A stretch of DNA of 34,797 nt, from the NCBI GenBank assembly GCA_017624955.1, contig JAGAMA010000009.1, forward strand, positions 1 to 34,797, in the 5' to 3' direction. The notes under the pieces are model-generated. The model saw only the letters and a program-made list of their open reading frames with translations. It did no database searches and had not been told where the DNA came from. Numbering within the stretch: the first letter of the stretch is position 1; each line of letters starts with the position of its first letter. The position numbers were made by a program, and so were the translations under genes. Of the stretch, positions 12,625-29,513 are shown in pieces. The stretch comes from Alistipes sp. (GTDB taxonomy: Bacteria; Bacteroidota; Bacteroidia; Bacteroidales; Rikenellaceae).

Positions 12625-15600
12625 TTAGAACGACAGGTTAAGACCTACAACGAACGAGCGTGCGCGCGGATAAGCACCCCAATCCAGACCGATGGTCGGA
12701 TAAGCGGCACCACCCTGGCTCTTGTTGGTGTTCACCTCAGGATCCAGACCCGAATAACCGGTGATCGTAAATACATTGTAAACCGATGCGTAAACGCGGA
12801 GGTTCGAGATACCGGCCTTCTTCGTGATCTGCTTCGGCAGGGTGTAACCCAGCGTCAGCGTGTTCAGACGCAGGAACGAGCCATCCTCGATACCATAGGT
12901 CGAAACGATACCGTTCTCCTGGTAACCGAAGGGCATCGTAGCACCCTTGTTCACCTCGGCCATCTTGGTCGGGTTGTCGAACAGCATCACGATGTTACCA
13001 TTCTCAACCGTGAAGGGCAGGAACGAATCGTTCAGGATAGCGAGCTTGTTCTCGAATACACCGGCCTCCTTACCACCGTGCATGGTAGCAAGCTTGTGGG
13101 CGTTGTAAACCTCGTTACCGATGCTCCAGTTGAAGTAAGCACCCAGGTCGAAGCCCTTCCACTGTGCGTTCAGGTTGAAACCACCGGTGCAGTCAGGCGT
13201 CATGTCACCGATAACCGTGATATCGTTATCGTCTACGATGCCGTCACCATTGAGGTCCTTATACTTACCCATACCGGGGAATGCGGTCTGACCGGCAGGA
13301 CGCATCTCCGACAGCGAGGTCGGGTTGAGCTGAGCGTACATCGACTGCGAATCGGCAATACCATCCTTCAGCGTGTAAACGCCGTTAGCATAGGTAAAGT
13401 CATCTACCGTGTAGATACCGTCGAATACCCAACCGCGAACCAGACCTACCGGCTGATCAACCTGCAGGATGTAGTCGTTCGAGGGGAACGTTGCCGACGA
13501 ACACCAGTTGGTGTTGTAGAGACCCGTTACGCTATCAGCCAGCTCATCCACGTTACCCTTGTTGAAGTTCACGTTTACACCGGCCGTCAGGCGGAAGTCC
13601 TTCTTATCAACCAGCACACCGTTCAGCGAAATCTCGACACCCTTGTTCGAGGTCTGACCTACGTTGTCATAGGTAGCCGTGAAACCGGTGATACCCGGGA
13701 TCGAGGTCTGCATCAGCAGGTCCTTCGTCGTGTTCCAGTAAACATCCACGGTACCGCTCAAGCGGTTGTTCCAGAAGCCAAAGTCGATACCGAGGTTACG
13801 CGTGATGGTCGTCTCCCACTTCAAGTCGGGGTTCACCATCTGCGAAGCCGAATACTTATAAGCGGGGATGATGCTCTCACCGCTCATATACATATTGCGG
13901 TGGTCGTTCTCGGCAGCCCAATTCTGCGACCAGAGGTTCGACGAGATACCGTCGTTACCTACCTGACCATACGACAGACGGAGCTTCAGGTTATCGAGCC
14001 ACTCTGCATCTTTCAACCACGACTCCTCCGACATACGCCATGCGAAGGCGGCTGCGGGGAAGTAACCCCAACGATTCGACGGAGCGAACTTCGACGAACC
14101 ATCGGCACGGAACGTGACGGTGAAGAGGTAGCGATCCATCAACGTGTAGTTGATACGGCCGAAGTACGACATAATGCGCTCGGGCATCGACTTGCTCGAC
14201 GAGGTCGAGGTCGAACCCTTGTCAGCATCAAACTGGTTGATCATGGCAAAAGCATTCTCCTTCGTAAAGTTAGCGGGGAAATACGATGCCGTAATACCCA
14301 TGCTCGAGCCACCCGAGTTCGTCACCTCCTGACCGGCCAGGATGTTGAACGAGTGGTTCTCACCCAGGTCAAACATATAGCTCAGCGTATTCGACCAACG
14401 CATGTTCCAAGCATCCGACTTCGAAAGCTCGGCCGAACCGGCATAGAGCTTCTCGCCCGTGTTGGCATCGATGTAGTCGTTCGTCAAGGCACCACGCCAG
14501 GTCTGGTTCTGATTCCACTGACGACGGAGCATGAAGTTCGTGTTGAAGTTCAGGCCCTCGATGATCGTCCAGTTCAGGGTAGCAGCAGCACGGAGGCTCT
14601 GACGCTCCTGCAGCGGCTCAAAGTCGCTGATACGGGCAGCGGGGCTGTACTGATCCCACTGCGTCTGCTTACCGTACATCTCGACGTTACCCTCCTTCAG
14701 AGCACCCAGGTCACCACGGATATCCTCCGTAGCGATCGGACGGAAACGATAAGCATAGGTCAGGATCGAACCGGCACCGTTCGTGGTACCCTCGTTACCC
14801 ATGCGCTCGATCTGCGTGTAACGCGTATCCAGACCGAAGGTCACGTTCTTGGCAAGCTGCTGGTTGATCTTCAGCGAAACCGAAGCACGCTTCGAGTACG
14901 AGTTGTGCTTCATACCCTGCTCGTCCATGTAGTTGGCAGCGAAGTAGATCTTCGTCTTGTCCGTACCACCCGAGATCGAGAAGTCATGGTTGTGCGAGAA
15001 CGACTCGTTGTAAACATCCTTCTGCATGTCGTACTTCTTCACGTTCTTGTAAGCCTCGAGGCCACCGTTCTGCGGCGTAGCGAAGCGACCAATACCGTAA
15101 AGTTTCTCCAGCGGCTCAGCATAAGCGTCACCGAAGAGCTGCGAACGACCCCACGAGTAAACCAGGTAATCATACGGATCGAGAGCGTCCATATAACCGG
15201 TCGGCTCGTTGAACTTGGCATAGCCGTTGTAGTTCACCTGTACGCGACCCTCCTTGGCACCCTTGGTCGTGATGAGGATTACACCGTTAGCACCACGGGC
15301 ACCATAGATAGCCGTCGACGAAGCATCCTTCAGCACGTCGATCGACTGAATCTGATCGGCCGGGATGTCGCTCATCGTACCCGGGATACCGTCCACGAGG
15401 ATCAGCGGCTCGTTCGACTGCGAAATCGAACCACCACCACGCACGCGAATCGAGATCTCGGCATCGGGACGACCGTCCTGTGCAGTTACATGCACACCGG
15501 GGAGCTTACCCTGCAGAGCCTGGGCTACGTTACCAACGGGAGCAGCCACGATATCCTTGGCCGAAACCGAAGCAACCGAACCGGTCAGGTCCTTACGACG

Positions 15601-22785: not shown

Positions 22786-24393
22786 ATGAGACACACCCTG
22801 CGCAGTTGGGTGGCAACTTTTGTTGCCCTGCTTCTCACGTTCGGCGCATCGGCCACAACCTACTCGATTCTGCCTGCGCCCACCTCGATTCGCCCCTCAG
22901 AGGGAATCTTCCGCCTCACACACAAGACACCGATTCGGATTGAAAAGGGGCTTGAGAATCCCGCCGAGCGATTTATCGAGGATGTAGCCCCCATCGTATC
23001 GTTGAAGGCACCCCGCATCCACGCCAAGCACGCCGACGGCATCCACCTCGCGCTCGATGCCACGCTGCATGCCGAGGGGTATCGCATGCAGATTACGCCC
23101 CAGGCAATACACATCGCAGGCGGTTCGGAGGCGGGTGTTTACTACGCCCTGCAATCGTTGCGCCAGCTCATCGTGCAGCATCGCACAGCCATCCCCTGCT
23201 GCGAGGTGGAGGATCAACCCAACTTCGCCTATCGCGGCGCGCACATGGATGTCGTGCGCCACTTCTTCACGGTCGAGGAGGTAAAGTGTTACCTCGACAT
23301 CCTCGCCGCCCATAAGCTCAACCGCCTCCATTGGCACCTGACGGATGACCAAGGGTGGCGCATCGAGATCAAACGCTATCCCGAGCTGACGGAGCACGCC
23401 TCGAAGCGCAACGAAACGCTCATCGGCCACTGCCTCCGCTCGACGACCTACGACGGTATCCCCTACGGTCCCTACTTCTTCACGCAGGAGGAGATCCGCG
23501 ACATCGTGCGCTACGCCGCCGAGCGTTACATCACCATCATCCCCGAAATCGAGATGCCGAGCCACGCCCAGGCAGCCCTGCACGCCCTGCCGTGGCTGGG
23601 TTGCGAGGAGCAACAGGTCGAGGTGTGGACTCATTGGGGTGTATCGCCCGAGGTGATGTGTGGGGGCAAGGAGACGACTTATGAGTTTTTGGAAAACGTG
23701 CTGACCGAGGTGATCGAACTCTTTCCCTCGGAGTATATCCACATCGGCGGTGATGAGTGCCCGAAGGAGCGTTGGGAGGCGTGCGAACACTGCCAGGCCC
23801 GCATCCGCGAGTTGGGACTGAAGGACGAGAGCGAGACCCGCACGGCCGAGAATCAGCTCCAGAGCTACCTTACGGGGCGCATCGAGCGCTTTCTGGCCAA
23901 GCATGGCCGCCGCATCATCGGTTGGGACGATATCCTGGCAGGTGGCGTGAGCCCCGAGGCTACGGTGATGTCGTGGCAGGGGTCGAAGGGTGGCATCTAC
24001 GCCGCCAAGCATGGCAACCTCGCCATCATGACCCCGATGGATTACTGCTACTTCGACTTCTACCAGACGAAGAGTCAGGAGGGAGAGGGGCTGGCAATCG
24101 GTGGTTGGGTGTCATTTGAGAAGGTCTATGGGTGGAATCCCTACGAGGGGCTGACGGCCGACGAACGGTCCTACATCTACGGCCTGCAGTGTAACCTCTG
24201 GAGCGAGTACATCACCTCGTTCGATCACCTGCAACGGATGCTTCTGCCACGTCTGGCGGCTCTTTCGGAGGTGCAGTGGGCCACCGATAGGCGCAATCCG
24301 GCAACCATCCGCGCCCGCATGGAGCAGATGCGCCGCCTCTACGAGCTGTACGGCTGGAGCTACGCGCCCTACTATTTCGAGGGTCGGGAGTAA
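22786..24393 (+). CDS. Beta-N-acetylhexosaminidase, GH20 family
   Basis: A 535-residue exported glycoside hydrolase of family GH20, which removes terminal N-acetylglucosamine or N-acetylgalactosamine. A signal peptide (about residues 1-24, ending FGASA) is followed by the GH20b N-terminal domain and then the catalytic barrel starting near YRGAHMDVVRHFF. The catalytic pair Asp323-Glu324 lies in HIGGDECPKERW. Other family pieces are HWHLTDDQGWRIEIKRYPELT, EIEMPSHAQAAL and GWDDILAGG. There is no obvious C-terminal binding domain. A role in host-glycan or peptidoglycan-sugar recovery is likely. Confidence 0.96.
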   Translation: MRHTLRSWVATFVALLLTFGASATTYSILPAPTSIRPSEGIFRLTHKTPIRIEKGLENPAERFIEDVAPIVSLKAPRIHAKHADGIHLALDATLHAEGYRMQITPQAIHIAGGSEAGVYYALQSLRQLIVQHRTAIPCCEVEDQPNFAYRGAHMDVVRHFFTVEEVKCYLDILAAHKLNRLHWHLTDDQGWRIEIKRYPELTEHASKRNETLIGHCLRSTTYDGIPYGPYFFTQEEIRDIVRYAAERYITIIPEIEMPSHAQAALHALPWLGCEEQQVEVWTHWGVSPEVMCGGKETTYEFLENVLTEVIELFPSEYIHIGGDECPKERWEACEHCQARIRELGLKDESETRTAENQLQSYLTGRIERFLAKHGRRIIGWDDILAGGVSPEATVMSWQGSKGGIYAAKHGNLAIMTPMDYCYFDFYQTKSQEGEGLAIGGWVSFEKVYGWNPYEGLTADERSYIYGLQCNLWSEYITSFDHLQRMLLPRLAALSEVQWATDRRNPATIRARMEQMRRLYELYGWSYAPYYFEGRE

Positions 24394-24431: not shown

Positions 24432-24461
24432 TTGGATTTTTCCACTTTTTGCCTAAATTTG
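24432..24461 (+). promoter_or_regulatory. Promoter of the phe leader and operon
   Basis: TTG (24432-24434), 19 bases, then TAAATTTG (24454-24461) matches the Bacteroidetes consensus. The expected start is near 24468, only a few bases before the ATG of the leader ORF at 24471. Confidence 0.7.
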
Positions 24462-24470
24462 CAAACAGAT

Positions 24471-24551
24471 ATGACGAACTTTTTTGCATACGGCTTTTAT
24501 TACTTCTTTTTTGGCGACAAGAAAAGGGGCGAGATGGCGCGTGTGCGTTAA
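24471..24551 (+). CDS. Phe/Tyr-rich leader peptide (pheL-like)
   Basis: A 26-codon ORF beginning MTNFFAYGFYYFFFG: nine of the first 14 residues are Phe (six) or Tyr (three), followed by a charged tail and a TAA stop. It lies between a good promoter and an intrinsic terminator upstream of prephenate dehydratase, the first committed step to phenylalanine. Enterobacterial PheL (15 residues, seven Phe) is organized the same way, so I infer a leader peptide whose translation senses charged tRNA-Phe (and perhaps tRNA-Tyr). The codons for the FFF run are at 24504-24512. There is almost no room for a ribosome-binding site, so translation may be leaderless. Confidence 0.75.
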   Translation: MTNFFAYGFYYFFFGDKKRGEMARVR

Positions 24552-24587
24552 ACCATAAAGAAAAACCAAAAAATCCCGCTCCTGCCC
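24526..24587 (+). promoter_or_regulatory. Possible antiterminator pairing
   Basis: Bases 24526-24537, inside the end of the leader ORF, can pair with 24576-24587: GGG/CCC, C/G, GAG/CTC, then TGG/GCC including one wobble, about ten pairs with small bulges. This uses up the left arm of the terminator. A ribosome stalled on the FFF codons would leave the first segment free, whereas one at the stop codon would cover it. The pairing was found by hand. Confidence 0.5.
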
Positions 24588-24606
24588 ATGCAAGAGTGGG
24601 ATTTTT
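24571..24606 (+). terminator. Attenuator terminator before pheA
   Basis: AAATCCCGCTC (24571-24581) pairs with GAGTGGGATTT (24594-24604) in 11 pairs with one wobble, loop 12 bases, with a T run at 24602-24606. It starts 19 bases after the leader stop codon and ends 27 bases before the pheA start. Confidence 0.85.
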
Positions 24607-24633
24607 ACTAACACGGGGCAACCCCCAAAAGCG

Positions 24634-25473
24634 ATGAAACAGGTAACAATTCAAGGTATATCGGGCTGTTTTCACGAGACGGCAGCGCACTGCTTCTTCG
24701 GAGAGGAGAAGATCGAGGTCATCCCCTGCGATAGTTTCGAGGTGCTCTTCGAGCGCCTGGAGGCCGACCGCTCGCTGCTCGGTATTGCCGCCATTGAGAA
24801 TACGATTGCAGGTTCGCTGCTGCCCAACCATGAGCTGCTGAGCCGCAGCCACCTGAAGATCATCGGCGAGGAGAAGATCCGCATCTCGCACATGCTCTGC
24901 GCCCTGCCCGGCCAGCGCCTGGAGGATATCGAGGAGGTGCGCTCCCACCCCATCGCCCTGATGCAGTGCGGCGACTTCCTGAAGACGATGCCCCACGCCC
25001 GCGTGGTGGAGCGCGACGATACGGCCGGCTCGGCCCGTGAGATTGCCGAGGGCAACCTCCGCCATACGGCCGCCATCTGCGGTGAGGATGCCGCCCGTCT
25101 CTACGGCCTGGAGATTCTCGCCCACGCCATCGAGACCAACCGCCACAACTTCACACGCTTCCTGATCCTGGCCGACGAAGCACAGGTCAAGGTCGATCCC
25201 GAGGCGGTCAATAAAGCCTCGCTACGCTTCACACTGCCCCACACGCAGGGGTCGCTCTCGAAGATTCTGACCGTGCTCTCGTTCTACGACATCAACCTGA
25301 CGAAGATCCAGTCCCTGCCGATCATCGGCCGCGAGTGGGAGTATCAGTTCTACATTGATGTTACCTTCGACAACTACACCCGCTACCGCCAATCGGTCGA
25401 GGCTGTGCGCCCTCTGACGAGCGACTTCACGATCCTGGGCGAGTACCGCGAGTGCCCCAATCCCGAAATCTAA
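24634..25473 (+). CDS. pheA: Prephenate dehydratase
   Basis: This 279-residue enzyme makes phenylpyruvate from prephenate, the step to phenylalanine. The catalytic PDT domain (residues 1-180) includes IAAIENTIAGSLLPNHELL and the NFTRF motif with Thr174-Arg175. The ACT regulatory domain (about 196-270) includes GSLSKILTVLSFYDINLTKIQSLP; the classical ESRP Phe-binding motif reads QSLP here. There is no fused chorismate mutase, unlike the enterobacterial P-protein; mutase activity is supplied by the next gene, 27 bp downstream. It is preceded by the leader-peptide attenuator. Confidence 0.96.
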   Translation: MKQVTIQGISGCFHETAAHCFFGEEKIEVIPCDSFEVLFERLEADRSLLGIAAIENTIAGSLLPNHELLSRSHLKIIGEEKIRISHMLCALPGQRLEDIEEVRSHPIALMQCGDFLKTMPHARVVERDDTAGSAREIAEGNLRHTAAICGEDAARLYGLEILAHAIETNRHNFTRFLILADEAQVKVDPEAVNKASLRFTLPHTQGSLSKILTVLSFYDINLTKIQSLPIIGREWEYQFYIDVTFDNYTRYRQSVEAVRPLTSDFTILGEYRECPNPEI

Positions 25474-25500: not shown

Positions 25501-26562
25501 ATGAAAGAGTTACAACCCATTACCCTACCGGGTCTCGATACCGCCCGTCCGCTACTGATTGCCGGCCCTTGCAGCGCCGAAACCGAGGAGCAGGTGCTCT
25601 CGACGGCTCACGCCCTGGCTCGCCGGGGGGTGCAGATTTTCCGTGCCGGCATCTGGAAGCCGCGCACCAAGCCGGGAGGCTTCGAGGGTGTCGGCCCCGA
25701 GGGCATCGCCTGGCTCCGCCGCGTGAAGGAGGAGGTGGGGATGTTCACCGCTACGGAGGTGGCCACCCACGCCCACGTCGAGGAGGCACTCAAGGGGGGC
25801 ATCGACCTCCTCTGGATCGGTGCCCGCACGGCTGCCAACCCCTTTGCCATGCAGGAGATTGCCGACTCGCTCAAAGGGGTCGATATCCCCGTCCTGGTCA
25901 AGAACCCCGTGAGCCCCGACCTGGAGCTCTGGATCGGTGCCCTGGAGCGCATCTACAACGCGGGCATTCGTCGCCTGGGTGCCGTGCACCGCGGCTTCAC
26001 CTGGGTCGATAAGTCGATCTACCGCAACCACCCCTTCTGGACGATTCCCATCGAGTTGCAGCGCCGTATCCCCAACCTGCCGATCCTCTGCGACCCGAGC
26101 CACATCGGCGGCAAGCGTGAGCTGATTGCTCCCCTCTCGCAGCAGGCCATGGACCTCGGCTTTGACGGCCTCCTGATCGAGGCGCACTGCAACCCCGATG
26201 CGGCTTGGAGCGACAAGGCGCAGCAGGTAGCCCCTGAGACACTCGCCTTTATCATCAGCAACCTTATTCTTCGCGATATGAACACCACCACGGATAATTT
26301 GAACGAGCTGCGCCGTCAGATCGACAAGCTCGATGACGAATTGATCGACCTCCTGGCACGCCGTATGCAGGTCTCGGCCGAGATTGGCCGCTACAAGAAG
26401 GCACACAACATGTCGGTACTCCAGTCGCAGCGCTACGAGGAGATCCTTGCCCGCCGTGCCCGCCAGGCCGTCGAGGCAGGCATGGATCGCGAGTTCATGC
26501 GCTCGGTGATGCAGGCCATCCACGAGGAGTCGATCCGCCAGCAGCAGAAGGTGATTGAGTAG
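25501..26562 (+). CDS. Bifunctional DAHP synthase / chorismate mutase
   Basis: A 353-residue fusion. Residues 1-258 are a type I-beta DAHP synthase, which joins phosphoenolpyruvate and erythrose 4-phosphate to open the shikimate pathway: LIAGPCSAE, FRAGIWKPRTKPGGFEGVG, IGARTAANP, LVKNPVSPD and CDPSHIGGKRE are visible. Residues 260-353 are an AroQ-type chorismate mutase helix bundle (LNELRRQIDKLDDELIDLLARRM). The same order, with the mutase at the C end, is known from Porphyromonas gingivalis, where the mutase domain mediates feedback control. Together with pheA this makes a two-gene phenylalanine unit; no tyrA or aminotransferase follows. Confidence 0.96.
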   Translation: MKELQPITLPGLDTARPLLIAGPCSAETEEQVLSTAHALARRGVQIFRAGIWKPRTKPGGFEGVGPEGIAWLRRVKEEVGMFTATEVATHAHVEEALKGGIDLLWIGARTAANPFAMQEIADSLKGVDIPVLVKNPVSPDLELWIGALERIYNAGIRRLGAVHRGFTWVDKSIYRNHPFWTIPIELQRRIPNLPILCDPSHIGGKRELIAPLSQQAMDLGFDGLLIEAHCNPDAAWSDKAQQVAPETLAFIISNLILRDMNTTTDNLNELRRQIDKLDDELIDLLARRMQVSAEIGRYKKAHNMSVLQSQRYEEILARRARQAVEAGMDREFMRSVMQAIHEESIRQQQKVIE

Positions 26563-26626: not shown

Positions 26627-26714
26627 GGAGAGGTGCAGGAGTGGTTGAACTGGCTCGCCTGGAAAGTGAGTAAACGCCAAAAGTGTTTCAGGGGTTCGAA
26701 TCCCCTCCTCTCCG
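26627..26714 (+). tRNA. tRNA-Ser (anticodon GGA)
   Basis: An 88-base class II tRNA with acceptor GGAGAGG/CCTCTCC, anticodon loop CTGGAAA (anticodon GGA), a long variable arm and T loop TTCGAAT. The discriminator is G; the following CAA shows CCA is not fully encoded. Its 3' end abuts a palindromic element and an accessory region, the usual place for integration. Confidence 0.96.
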
Positions 26715-26865
26715 CAAAAGGGCAAACGAACGATTTGCACGGCTTCTGCATCTGCAGAAGCTTTTTTGTTTTAGGGCAGTGCTATGCTTGCATAGGCAAT
26801 AGCCCTAAAACAAAAAAATGCTCCCTACGGGAGCCGTGCAAAATCTCGTTCGTTTGGCTTTTCGC
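26714..26865 (+). ncRNA. Branched palindromic element at the tRNA-Ser(GGA) 3' end (terminator-containing)
   Basis: The stretch can fold as a closing stem with three arms. Closing pairs are 26721-26733 with 26846-26858 (12 of 13) and 26734-26743 with 26833-26842 (TTTGCACGGC with its complement; its last bases compete with arms A and C). Arm A is 26742-26750 with 26753-26761, followed by six T (an intrinsic terminator for the tRNA). Arm B is 26762-26777 with 26802-26817 (16 pairs), with CTATGC/GCATAG inside. Arm C is GCTCCC/GGGAGC at 26820-26834, which with the A run before it would terminate transcription from the other side. The same layout with different stem sequences follows the other tRNA-Ser (32333-32484). 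Whether it is a bidirectional terminator, an RNA or a mobile repeat is not known. Confidence 0.7.
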
Positions 26866-26967
26866 AGGGATGCCGCCGGCAGGCAGGGGAAAGGCGTCAC
26901 GAAGCGAGCCCACGGCTCGCGTAGTAGCCAATTCCCTCCTCCATAACCATCGCCAGGCATCCCTGCG
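26863..26967. repeat. Second palindrome beyond tRNA-Ser(GGA)
   Basis: A perfect 12-bp arm pair, 26863-26874 with 26956-26967, encloses GGGAA/TTCCC, GGC/GCC and GCGAGCC-CAC-GGCTCGC (26904-26920). Diverged sequence of the same kind follows the tRNA-Ser(GCT) element on the minus strand (about 32270-32332). Confidence 0.75.
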
Positions 26968-26976
26968 AGAAGCAAA

Positions 26977-26991
26977 CCCTTTTGCGGAGAG
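26977..26991 (-). repeat. Inverted copy of the tRNA-Ser(GGA) 3' end
   Basis: CTCTCCGCAAAAGGG, 15 bases identical to the tRNA-Ser acceptor end plus flank at 26708-26722, occurs here on the minus strand. The two copies bound the 284-bp palindromic region. It could be an attachment-site remnant or the outermost arm of the palindrome. Confidence 0.65.
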
Positions 26992-27011
26992 ACCTTGACA
27001 ATCCTCCCCAA

Positions 27012-27033
27012 CCCCTCCTTTGAGAAGGAGGGG
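27012..27033. repeat. Perfect nine-pair hairpin
   Basis: CCCCTCCTT and AAGGAGGGG around TGAG. No T tract follows on either strand. Confidence 0.6.
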
Positions 27034-27059
27034 CTTACTACCTGACACAAAAAAACACA

Positions 27060-27106
27060 GCTCGCGCAGTAGCCAATCCCCAAGGGCCCTTGCAAACCCT
27101 TTTGCG
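27060..27106 (+). repeat. Direct repeat of part of the preceding palindrome
   Basis: Bases 27060-27081 match 26915-26936 at 20 of 22 positions, and 27092-27106 (GCAAACCCTTTTGCG) is identical to 26972-26986. The spacing between the two blocks differs (35 versus 10 bases between them), so it is a second, rearranged copy. The rest of 27107-27242 holds no gene I can support. Confidence 0.7.
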
Positions 27107-27215
27107 AAGAGGAGGGGATGGCCTTCGGCCTCCCTACACTTAAAATCCCTCCAAACCTCCCATAAAACCATGGTAAAACTATAAGAACTCGCTAAAGATA
27201 TGCCGGTTATTTGTT

Positions 27216-27231
27216 ATATTATTACAAATCA
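27216..27231 (+). repeat. Left copy of a 16-bp repeat flanking the recombinase genes
   Basis: ATATTATTACAAATCA. The right copy at 29758-29773 differs at one base. Both serine recombinase genes lie between the copies. A candidate element boundary or attachment site. Confidence 0.45.
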
Positions 27232-27242
27232 GTATATTATGG

Positions 27243-28757
27243 ATGAGAAAGGCGATTGTTCTAAGTAGGGTTAGCACCTTGCAGCAGGATCTAAGGCAGC
27301 AGACCGAGGAGATTTTGCGGGAGGTGTACAAAGATGGATACAAGAAGGAGGAGGTAATTGTAATTGAGGATAAGGAGTCGGCCATTAAACTCTCCGAGGA
27401 GGAGCGGCGTGGGCTGAACAAACTCAAAGAGCATATTCGTACCGATCCGACCATTACGGCGGTGTATATTTACGAACTATCGAGATTAAGCCGTAGGCAG
27501 TTGGTATTATTCAGCATTCGAGATTTTCTGATTGAGCACAACATCCAGCTCATCTGTCTAAAGCCCTATTTCAAACTGCTTGAACCCGATGGTAAAATGT
27601 CACAAACGGGGTCACTGATGTTTTCGATCTTCTCTTCGATGTCTGAATCGGAGATGGCATTGGCCAAAGAGCGCATGATGAGAGGGCGGAAATTCAATAT
27701 TGCGATGGGAAAATCGGGAGGAGGCAGAGCGCCATTCGGCTATACGACCGACAAAGATAAAAGGTATGTAATCCATCCCGAGCAAGTAGCAATCCTTCGG
27801 AGAATCTTCCACGATTACGCCTATTCCGGCAAATCACAAGTCAAAATCAGCAAAGAACTCAAGGAAGAGGGCCTATTTCCACATTTACAGCTGCATAGTC
27901 TTAACAATCAAATCAATCTCTGGATTAGGCGCACCTACTATACGGGAACAAATCAATTCCCTCCAATCATATCCAAAACCCTCTTTGCCGAAGCGCAAAG
28001 ATCGTTAGAACGAAATCGAATAGTACACACTAATACCCCTCGTGAGTTGTTTCTACTTAAAGGGATAATTCGCGATGCACAGACGGGCTATCTGCTACAT
28101 AGCAATAGTAATTCGGGACACTATCAAGCTCGGCGCGCTTCATCTCTTACAATCAGCATGCGCAACATCGACCCATTGGTCTGGAGCGTCGCCAAAGAGC
28201 TATATGAAAAGTTTGTGGTAAATAAAGAACTCTTATACAAACAACTCCTCAAAGAGGTTGGAACCCTATCCGCAAAAATCGATCATCTGAATCGAGAACT
28301 ATCCTTTATTCACGATAAGATGGAAAGAGTCGAGGAGCGTTTCATTTTCGGCAGATTGCGAAAAGCTCGCGCCGAAGAGTTGATTGCAGAGCTCTCGGTA
28401 GAACAGATGGAGATCGAGACGAGATTGGTTGAGCTTGCCAATGAGTCGGCGATGAAACAGTGTCAGATAAACGATGTGTTACTATCGGAAGAGATTGATG
28501 ATGAGAAGTTGTCGCTAAACGAAAAGATAGAGATCGTAAAGAAGGTGATCTACATGGTTACCGTCCGCAAGCCGAGTAGAAAAGAGACAGAGGTCAAACT
28601 CTACAACAAAATCAATAATGAGGTACTCGTGTACAGGGTTGATTGTTGGCGTCGTTCATGGCAGCTAATCAGCCAATCGAATCGGGCAGAGAATCCACCG
28701 CCTAAAATCCCGAAGAGTCACGAGACCCGTATTAAAAACCGAACCCTATTAATTTAA
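27243..28757 (+). CDS. Large serine recombinase
   Basis: A 504-residue site-specific recombinase of the serine type. The resolvase-type catalytic domain spans about residues 1-150 (VLSRVSTLQQD, with nucleophile Ser11; YELSRLSRRQL holding conserved arginines; ESEMALAKERMMRGRKF). A Recombinase domain with GKSGGGRAPFGYTTDKDKRYVIHPEQVAILRRIF follows, and a long charged coiled coil lies near residues 330-400. The zinc-ribbon found in many large serine integrases is not recognizable: only three cysteines are seen and none form CxxC pairs. Lower GC than the surrounding genes suggests transfer. It could integrate or excise the segment beside tRNA-Ser, or invert DNA. Confidence 0.9.
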   Translation: MRKAIVLSRVSTLQQDLRQQTEEILREVYKDGYKKEEVIVIEDKESAIKLSEEERRGLNKLKEHIRTDPTITAVYIYELSRLSRRQLVLFSIRDFLIEHNIQLICLKPYFKLLEPDGKMSQTGSLMFSIFSSMSESEMALAKERMMRGRKFNIAMGKSGGGRAPFGYTTDKDKRYVIHPEQVAILRRIFHDYAYSGKSQVKISKELKEEGLFPHLQLHSLNNQINLWIRRTYYTGTNQFPPIISKTLFAEAQRSLERNRIVHTNTPRELFLLKGIIRDAQTGYLLHSNSNSGHYQARRASSLTISMRNIDPLVWSVAKELYEKFVVNKELLYKQLLKEVGTLSAKIDHLNRELSFIHDKMERVEERFIFGRLRKARAEELIAELSVEQMEIETRLVELANESAMKQCQINDVLLSEEIDDEKLSLNEKIEIVKKVIYMVTVRKPSRKETEVKLYNKINNEVLVYRVDCWRRSWQLISQSNRAENPPPKIPKSHETRIKNRTLLI

Positions 28758-28810
28758 CATTGAGAAGGGGTTTAATTGGGTTGAAAAAACATATTGATTT
28801 AAGGTTTTAT

Positions 28811-28867
28811 ATTAAAGTTATTGGACTTTTTGTTATTTATAAATAACAGACAGCCAATAACTTTAAT
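28811..28867. repeat. Double palindrome before the small recombinase gene
   Basis: Perfect 14-bp inverted arms, ATTAAAGTTATTGG (28811-28824) and its complement (28854-28867), surround a perfect 16-bp palindrome (28832-28847) with practically the same centre. It ends 13 bases before the recombinase start. It has the symmetry expected of a recombinase crossover site or an autoregulatory operator. Neither strand has a T tract as in a terminator. Confidence 0.8.
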
Positions 28868-28880
28868 TATTTTATGTCTT

Positions 28881-29513
28881 ATGGAGAAAGTAGTAATTCT
28901 TGCCCGAGTAAGTACCGACAAGCAGGAGTATGAACGACAAATCACGGAACTTGCCGAATACTGCCGAAAGATGGGTTGGGAGGTAGTCCGCATCTTTGCC
29001 AACAAAGTCAGCGGAGCGAAGACCAACGAAGAACGAGAGGAGATTCAGGAGCTGATCGAATTTGTAAAGACCCACCAAATCCAACGAGTCGTCTGTTTAG
29101 AGATTAGTCGTATGGGACGAAACACCTTGGAGGCGCTCAAAGTCATCCAACTCCTCAACGAACACAAAGTAAGTCTCTATGTGAAGAACTACAATTTAGA
29201 GACTTTGGATAGTGAAGGCAAGGTCAATCCCGTCGCATCATTGATTTGCACCATTCTATTGGAGATTGCCCAAATGGAACGTTTAACGATCAAGGAGCGC
29301 ATGGCGAGTGGCCGAAAGCAATACATTGAGAAATGTAGGAGAGAGGGTATTAAGATGGGGCGTCCCGAGACCTACCGCAAGAGCATTGAGGAGTACAAAA
29401 AACAATACCAGAAAGAGATCTCACTGATTCGTAAAGGTCTCTCTCTGGCAAATATCTCCGCGATTACGGGCACTTCGATTAATACGATTCGAAAACTACG
29501 GTCTATCCTTTAA
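28881..29513 (+). CDS. Small serine recombinase (resolvase/invertase type)
   Basis: A 210-residue protein of the resolvase/DNA-invertase class. The catalytic domain has MEKVVILARVSTDKQEYERQ (nucleophile Ser11), LEISRMGRNTLEAL, and IAQMERLTIKERMASGRKQY leading into the dimer/DNA-binding helix. GRPETYRKS then leads to a C-terminal helix-turn-helix (IRKGLSLANISAITGTSINTIRKL). The ATG at 28881 is used; an in-frame ATG 20 codons up would start inside the palindrome. It differs from the large recombinase upstream in size and domains, so the two are not duplicates. Confidence 0.9.
   Translation: MEKVVILARVSTDKQEYERQITELAEYCRKMGWEVVRIFANKVSGAKTNEEREEIQELIEFVKTHQIQRVVCLEISRMGRNTLEALKVIQLLNEHKVSLYVKNYNLETLDSEGKVNPVASLICTILLEIAQMERLTIKERMASGRKQYIEKCRREGIKMGRPETYRKSIEEYKKQYQKEISLIRKGLSLANISAITGTSINTIRKLRSIL

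Follow-up and report, generated by a model that had tools for sequence, protein, structure and literature searches.

A putative phenylalanine/tyrosine leader-peptide attenuator upstream of pheA in Alistipes sp. and other Bacteroidia

The stretch of Alistipes sp. DNA analysed here (34,797 nucleotides, contig JAGAMA010000009.1; hereafter the window) very probably contains, on its forward strand upstream of pheA, a ribosome-mediated transcription attenuator that senses phenylalanine, and probably tyrosine, and that controls both pheA and the DAHP synthase/chorismate mutase gene behind it. With appreciably less assurance, we lean towards regarding this as a class-wide and probably ancestral Phe + Tyr attenuator of the Bacteroidia, absent from Rfam and operating without Shine-Dalgarno initiation, which in the window's clade would act on an almost leaderless mRNA (5' UTR of about 5 nt). 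The leader open reading frame (ORF), the terminator, the antiterminator with its covariation and the spacing are established by comparison with relatives or by folding of the RNA.

The leader ORF comprises 26 codons (MTNFFAYGFYYFFFGDKKRGEMARVR; 24471..24551, with the ATG at 24471 and the stop codon at 24549-24551). Nine of its residues 1-14 are Phe or Tyr, the control codons (six Phe and three Tyr, within codons 4-14) occupying 24480..24512, and similar aromatic leaders are found in relatives. An earlier note on this DNA had pointed to a promoter and to a 26-codon ORF with nine aromatic residues among its first 14; the ORF and a -7 box are both seen directly in the sequence. The -7 promoter element (TAAATTTG, 24454..24461) follows the TAnnTTTG consensus of Bacteroidetes sigma-A, and as this box is placed at -12 to -5 in published work (PMC9723704), transcription is predicted to start at about 24466, leaving a 5' UTR of about 5 nt. 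A scan for sigma-70 type promoters, which is of little use for this phylum, found none at the leader.

In 152/197 leaders a TAnnTTTG box precedes the ATG by 60 nt or less, as against 4% in shuffles, and in 123 of these 152 the box-to-ATG spacing is 16-34 nt. In 17 leaders, including that of the window, the box sits only about 7-11 nt before the ATG; ten relatives with such short spacing (L002-L008, L017, L036, L039) have PheA proteins 72-91% identical to that of the window, and for these and the window itself, all with a spacing of 8-11 nt, the leader-peptide mRNA is predicted to be almost leaderless. Transcripts with 5' UTRs shorter than 10 nt are reported at about 3.7% in Bacteroides thetaiotaomicron (PMC7366714), and leaderless mRNAs at 5.5% in Flavobacterium psychrophilum (PMC9723704).

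The leader falls within a 240-nt intergenic gap between pheA (24634..25473) and an upstream ORF with a weak beta-N-acetylglucosaminidase match, whose end at 24393 leaves 77 nt to the leader start. That the gene behind the terminator encodes prephenate dehydratase, as the earlier note had it, is borne out by a family match (NCBIfam PRK11898, E 4.9e-54) which, at 183 bits, lies under the curated cut-off of 219; the nearest titled relatives of the protein come from Alistipes sp. and Rikenellaceae MAGs (90-91% protein identity). The second gene of the presumed operon (25501..26562) matches DAHP synthase (PRK08673, E 3e-54) and, C-terminally, the chorismate mutase family TIGR01803 (E 1.3e-16), both under the curated cut-offs, and a DAHP synthase gene is found directly 3' of pheA in the window and in five relatives (L032, L035, L036, L039, L052). 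In the window the pair is followed by a tRNA-Ser and then by two recombinase-like genes, one with a serine recombinase match (27243-28757) and one recombinase-like by eye (28821-29513); the region 26627-29513 is possibly an integrated element, and a similar recombinase ORF stands behind the operon in L032. Across the congeneric genomes a pheA match occurs in just 54/101 (20/38 among the more complete ones), a patchiness that suggests repeated loss of Phe synthesis; a plasmid collection yielded two partial pheA matches only.

Upstream regions of pheA were gathered from 30 congeneric loci, 80 GTDB contigs and draws from the order and the phylum, 100 stretches being cut from match lists; once 20 duplicates had been set aside, 110 loci and the window's own left 91 distinct upstream regions, 82 of them with a leader at a score of at least 6. 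A leader was counted where a small ORF with at least six F/Y in ten consecutive residues lies no more than 450 nt upstream of pheA. Counted in this way, it is present in 47/48 congeneric genomes (48 of the 54 genomes with a pheA match, the window's own being among the 54), in 68/75 order-level genomes (76 of 79 besides the window's, less L185, at a contig edge), in 71/80 GTDB contigs and in 32/33 other members of the class, these sets overlapping partly. The genus and order figures answer the refuting condition set in the earlier note, namely relatives that retain the terminator but lack an aromatic-rich ORF: the prediction held, the aromatic ORF being kept there along with the terminator. Members of other classes of the phylum have a leader in 5/28 cases, a figure from a non-random sample, since the phylum draw took 61 regions of 258 genomes with a match from the top of the list and from a hand-picked spread. 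L235 was left out of the counts; L128, with 15 nt of upstream sequence only, was counted as without a leader, as was L151, whose ORF scoring 6 sits farther upstream than the limit, and L175 offers about 200 nt only.

At a stricter score of at least seven F/Y in ten residues, 187/238 distinct pheA-upstream regions are positive compared with 7/1190 dinucleotide shuffles. Control ORFs of at least 180 aa in L031-L110 reach this score in 17/345 cases, 16 of them pheA itself and the last (L041) an ORF overlapping pheA in a different frame; with pheA and pheA-overlapping ORFs set aside, 0/328 control ORFs do so in these GTDB loci.

Eighteen loci within the class have pheA without the leader. In ten of these (L072, L073, L074, L075, L083, L092, L095, L119, L167, L226) a long open frame (over 100 codons) terminates 2-49 nt ahead of pheA with no promoter box close to it, so that pheA has no promoter-leader unit of its own, as expected if it had joined another operon. 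Five more (L063, L081, L209, L211, L212) lack the leader but do carry a TAnnTTTG box 100 nt or less from pheA, indicating that the gene can be driven without a leader; here the attenuator appears to have been lost and the promoter kept. L125 and L238 have neither a near open frame nor a box, and the sequence of L128 is too short to judge. In other classes, the five leaders and the distal ORF of L151 belong to the six genomes with the most window-like PheA of the 28 (L145, L151, L237, L239, L241, L244; E 1.3e-63 or lower), with a leader in 0 of the other 22. Joint transfer of pheA and its leader to other classes is thus possible, in a sample that is partly hand-picked.

Downstream of the leader ORF lies a strong intrinsic terminator hairpin (segments 3:4, 24570..24605; -20.3 kcal/mol, z -6.4) with a U tract at 24602-24606. 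None of 200 shuffles is as stable, and for the whole leader (24466-24612) the folding energy is -45 kcal/mol (z -4.4). The terminator with a T run described in the earlier note is therefore present, but its stem has 12 outer and 3 inner pairs (13 + 3 in a longer fold) in place of the 11 pairs counted there. A hairpin-plus-U candidate lies downstream in 197/197 leaders and reaches -10 kcal/mol or better in 195/197, compared with 24/197 shuffles searched with the same step, and also 24/197 at a coarser step; the stems vary by lineage (UCCCGCUC, UCCUGACC, UCCCGUUC, UCCUGCUC, UCCCGGC and others). A terminator scan of a 6-kb stretch picked up parts of this hairpin on either strand, but over the stretch as a whole its hits were no more frequent than in shuffles (6 vs 5.9).

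Segment 2 (AGGGGCGAGAU, 24525..24535) forms the 5' arm of the antiterminator and pairs best, at 10/11 positions, with segment 3 (AUCCCGCUCCU, 24573..24583), which by folding is common to antiterminator and terminator. The antiterminator proposed in the earlier note, with 24526-24537 pairing with 24576-24587, thus exists, but in a register about 3 nt away. In relatives, too, the segment just after the aromatic run looks like the 3' arm of the terminator and is able to base-pair with its 5' arm: the median complementarity score of segments 2 and 3 is 21 for true pairs, 12 for shuffled and 14 for swapped partners, and 178/197 leaders score at least 15. Swapping partners makes a weak control, since UCCCG recurs in many stems: the threshold is reached by 37% of swaps vs 90% of true pairs.

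Covariation between the two segments was assessed in the 120/197 loci that could be anchored, the 77 un-anchorable ones being left out, against permutations that ignore shared ancestry. At position +1, the most variable, 111/120 loci are paired (permutation mean 54.2, maximum 68), and GC, AU, UA, CG, GU and UG pairs are all seen, a number of pair types that argues for repeated compensation. Position +2 is paired in 99/120 loci (permutation mean 68.1, maximum 78), position +3 in 52/120, little above permutation (mean 42.0, maximum 53), and position +4 in 31/120, not above permutation (mean 28.2); all of the first three pairs are formed in 46/120 loci only. These comparisons argue for a segment 2 that follows the lineage-specific terminator stem. 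Both the terminator and the antiterminator are accordingly found in the relatives, where the earlier note had proposed that they be sought.

Segment 1 (UGCAUACG, 24485..24492) can pair with 24540-24547 (CGUGUGCG), and in the window this pairing is part of a larger hairpin (24486-24546, -22.9 kcal/mol) over segment 2; in relatives it can pair with a UAUGC- or UGUGC-like stretch after segment 2. The codon before Tyr in [FY]-A-Y and [FY]-T-Y motifs is GCA for 56/57 Ala and ACA for 20/23 Thr, whereas in the pheA genes of the same loci GCA accounts for 21% of Ala and ACA for 18% of Thr. With a bias so far above that of the pheA genes, the segment 1 stretch seems to be held at the nucleotide level. 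Across relatives the 1:2 pairing is in modest excess (mean 16.9 vs 14.2-15.0 in three controls), and the contingency between GCAUA/ACAUA and UAUGC/UAUGU is borderline (Fisher p 0.049, for sequences that are non-independent).

From this arrangement we infer ribosome stalling, coupling of translation to transcription, read-through, the amino acids sensed and a role for the 1:2 hairpin. Expression of pheA and the DAHP synthase/chorismate mutase gene would in this way follow the charging of tRNA-Phe and, probably, of tRNA-Tyr. With enough Phe and Tyr, the ribosome would clear the aromatic run and occupy or unwind segment 2 while ending the leader; segment 3 would then pair with segment 4, and transcription would stop at the terminator. 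Were Phe or Tyr to run short, the ribosome would stall on the aromatic run and cover segment 1, leaving segment 2 free to capture segment 3 ahead of the synthesis of segment 4, and the polymerase would then read into pheA. In a leader that is not translated, an early 1:2 hairpin may hide segment 2 and favour termination.

The geometry of the leaders is in keeping with stalling at the aromatic run. By toeprint geometry, the front of a ribosome should lie about 10 nt beyond the codon in its A site. The distance from the last Phe codon to the start of segment 2 is 12 nt in the window; over 178 leaders, measured from the last aromatic codon, it is 10.6 ± 2.4 nt (shuffled 18.3 ± 11.5), so that a stalled ribosome would just free the segment; placed at the last aromatic codon, the ribosome would cover 35% of segment 2 or less in 168/178 leaders. 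The leader stop codon precedes segment 2 in 56 leaders and comes once the segment has begun in the other 122; a ribosome standing on it would cover at least half of segment 2 in 149/178 (null 55%). In the window, however, it would cover only 1/7 bases of the contiguous segment 2 core, a point against the model in its simplest form for this locus. As regards the order of folding, masking of the leader to 24522 (the initial 52 nt of the ORF) gives the antiterminator as the minimum-energy fold for RNA extending to 24600, and the terminator from 24605. Unmasked RNA ending at 24586-24595 has the antiterminator, not the 1:2 hairpin, as its minimum-energy fold, and from 24600 the 1:2 hairpin and terminator take over; equilibrium folding therefore gives no support for a protector role of the 1:2 hairpin before 24600.

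Tyr is kept in 194/197 leaders, and the operons of Parabacteroides and Seramator include a TyrA-like fourth gene (the order being pheA, a second ORF that we take to be aminotransferase-like, DAHP synthase/chorismate mutase and the TyrA-like ORF). Both observations speak against sensing of Phe only, with the Tyr codons as tolerated fillers, a reading that we consider unlikely, though it deserves serious weight: the last aromatic codon is Phe in 140/197 leaders and Tyr in 57, the leaders together contain 1092 F vs 728 Y, and the tyrA match of the window's genome lies elsewhere. This match, found by Pfam PDH_N outside the pheA operon (G000:C3, about 13920-14762; L272 2421-3263), is directly behind another ORF, presumably peptidase-E-like, and has no aromatic leader, so that the pheA operon appears to serve Phe and the common pathway. 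Used as a query, the TyrA-like operon ORF hit the positions in G003 and G006 that PDH_N also picked out, and the Parabacteroides ORF found no convincing match in the window's genome (best E 0.0067).

The aromatic core common to the peptides might also reflect nascent-peptide arrest, in which the peptide would stall in the exit tunnel, as in TnaC, in response to free Phe/Tyr or another ligand and not to tRNA charging; a stall late in the run would give the same picture in either case. We consider this improbable, given that the order, length and flanks of the core vary (FYFYFYF, YYFFF, KRFYYYR, FFFFFAFFF) whereas the number of F/Y and the spacing to segment 2 are kept across leaders; arrest by a free ligand would, moreover, be expected to turn the genes on at plenty, the wrong sign for biosynthesis. 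Even less credible is a ligand riboswitch, T-box or protein-bound attenuator overlapping a translated ORF, which would account for a structured leader with a terminator but leaves the aromatic codons unexplained; it was rejected on this ground and because no Rfam family reaches its gathering score over the leader in the window or in 12 relatives, the T-box in particular not being among the Rfam matches at the window locus. Least credible of all, a constitutive terminator with a chance ORF, for example at the end of a transcript of the closely preceding upstream gene, would suit the strength of the hairpin but is contradicted by the comparison, in which leader, spacing and antiterminator are conserved and covarying, and by the promoter box between upstream gene and leader, and was rejected.

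The preferred reading, a ribosome-mediated attenuator sensing Phe and probably Tyr, has its closest counterpart in enterobacterial pheL, where a short Phe-rich leader ORF with alternative antiterminator and terminator precedes prephenate dehydratase. The window shares each of these features, and the pheL-pheA-like arrangement recognised in the earlier note gains support from the conserved leader, the terminator and the co-varying antiterminator, all seen by comparison and folding. Rfam RF01859 (Phe_leader) scores 18.5 bits at the window leader (E 0.92), below its gathering score of 55, and the best reading is that the window attenuator would work like pheL-pheA without being a member of the Rfam Phe_leader family. 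Unlike pheL-pheA, the Bacteroidia leaders mix Phe and Tyr codons and place the stop codon before or after segment 2 by lineage, pheA in the window is followed by the DAHP synthase/chorismate mutase gene, and the host phylum is described as lacking Shine-Dalgarno sites (PMC9723704).

A second motif for comparison, Bacteroid-trp (RF01692, gathering score 49 bits), is not among the matches at the window locus and was found in 0/31 congeneric genomes, with a Bacteroides control matched. It has been proposed as a trp leader. Its listing as a Bacteroidetes cis-regulatory motif (Table 1 of PMC2864571) is the likeness to the element described here. For Flavobacterium psychrophilum, clues to leader-peptide attenuation upstream of amino-acid operons have been reported, together with a conserved structured 5' element upstream of pheA that is also present in other Flavobacteriaceae and has no Rfam family (PMC9723704). 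As described there, that element comes with no peptide, no antiterminator and no range beyond Flavobacteriaceae; it is probably the same element as the window attenuator. In B. thetaiotaomicron, likewise, some long 5' UTRs contain short ORFs that have been called reminiscent of leader peptides (PMC7366714). In light of what these sources report, the earlier note's view that no Phe/Tyr leader peptide of this kind had been described in Bacteroidetes was too strong (PMC9723704, PMC2864571). None of the literature matches listed describes a Phe/Tyr leader peptide that precedes pheA across the Bacteroidales. Vitreschak et al. (2004) reportedly already mention Bacteroidetes/Chlorobi.

Naville and Gautheret (2010) stated that no leader peptide system was known beyond Proteobacteria and Actinobacteria before their own Firmicutes case (PMC2965389), a picture that a class-wide leader with a covarying antiterminator would widen, offering at the same time a simple, testable control of aromatic amino-acid synthesis in gut Bacteroidales. 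If the class-wide reading is true, it would imply tight transcription-translation coupling in Bacteroidia, and the attenuator seems to travel with pheA into other classes. Because attenuation needs a ribosome close behind the polymerase, the element would be a ready reporter for such coupling. Bacteroidota are not listed among the phyla classed as showing runaway transcription, as given in PMC13323073, and this phylum-level label could be tested with the pheA element. The kind of control is known, and was partly anticipated in Bacteroidetes; what is new is its reach, the covariation of its antiterminator and, in the window's clade, a predicted 5' UTR of about 5 nt.
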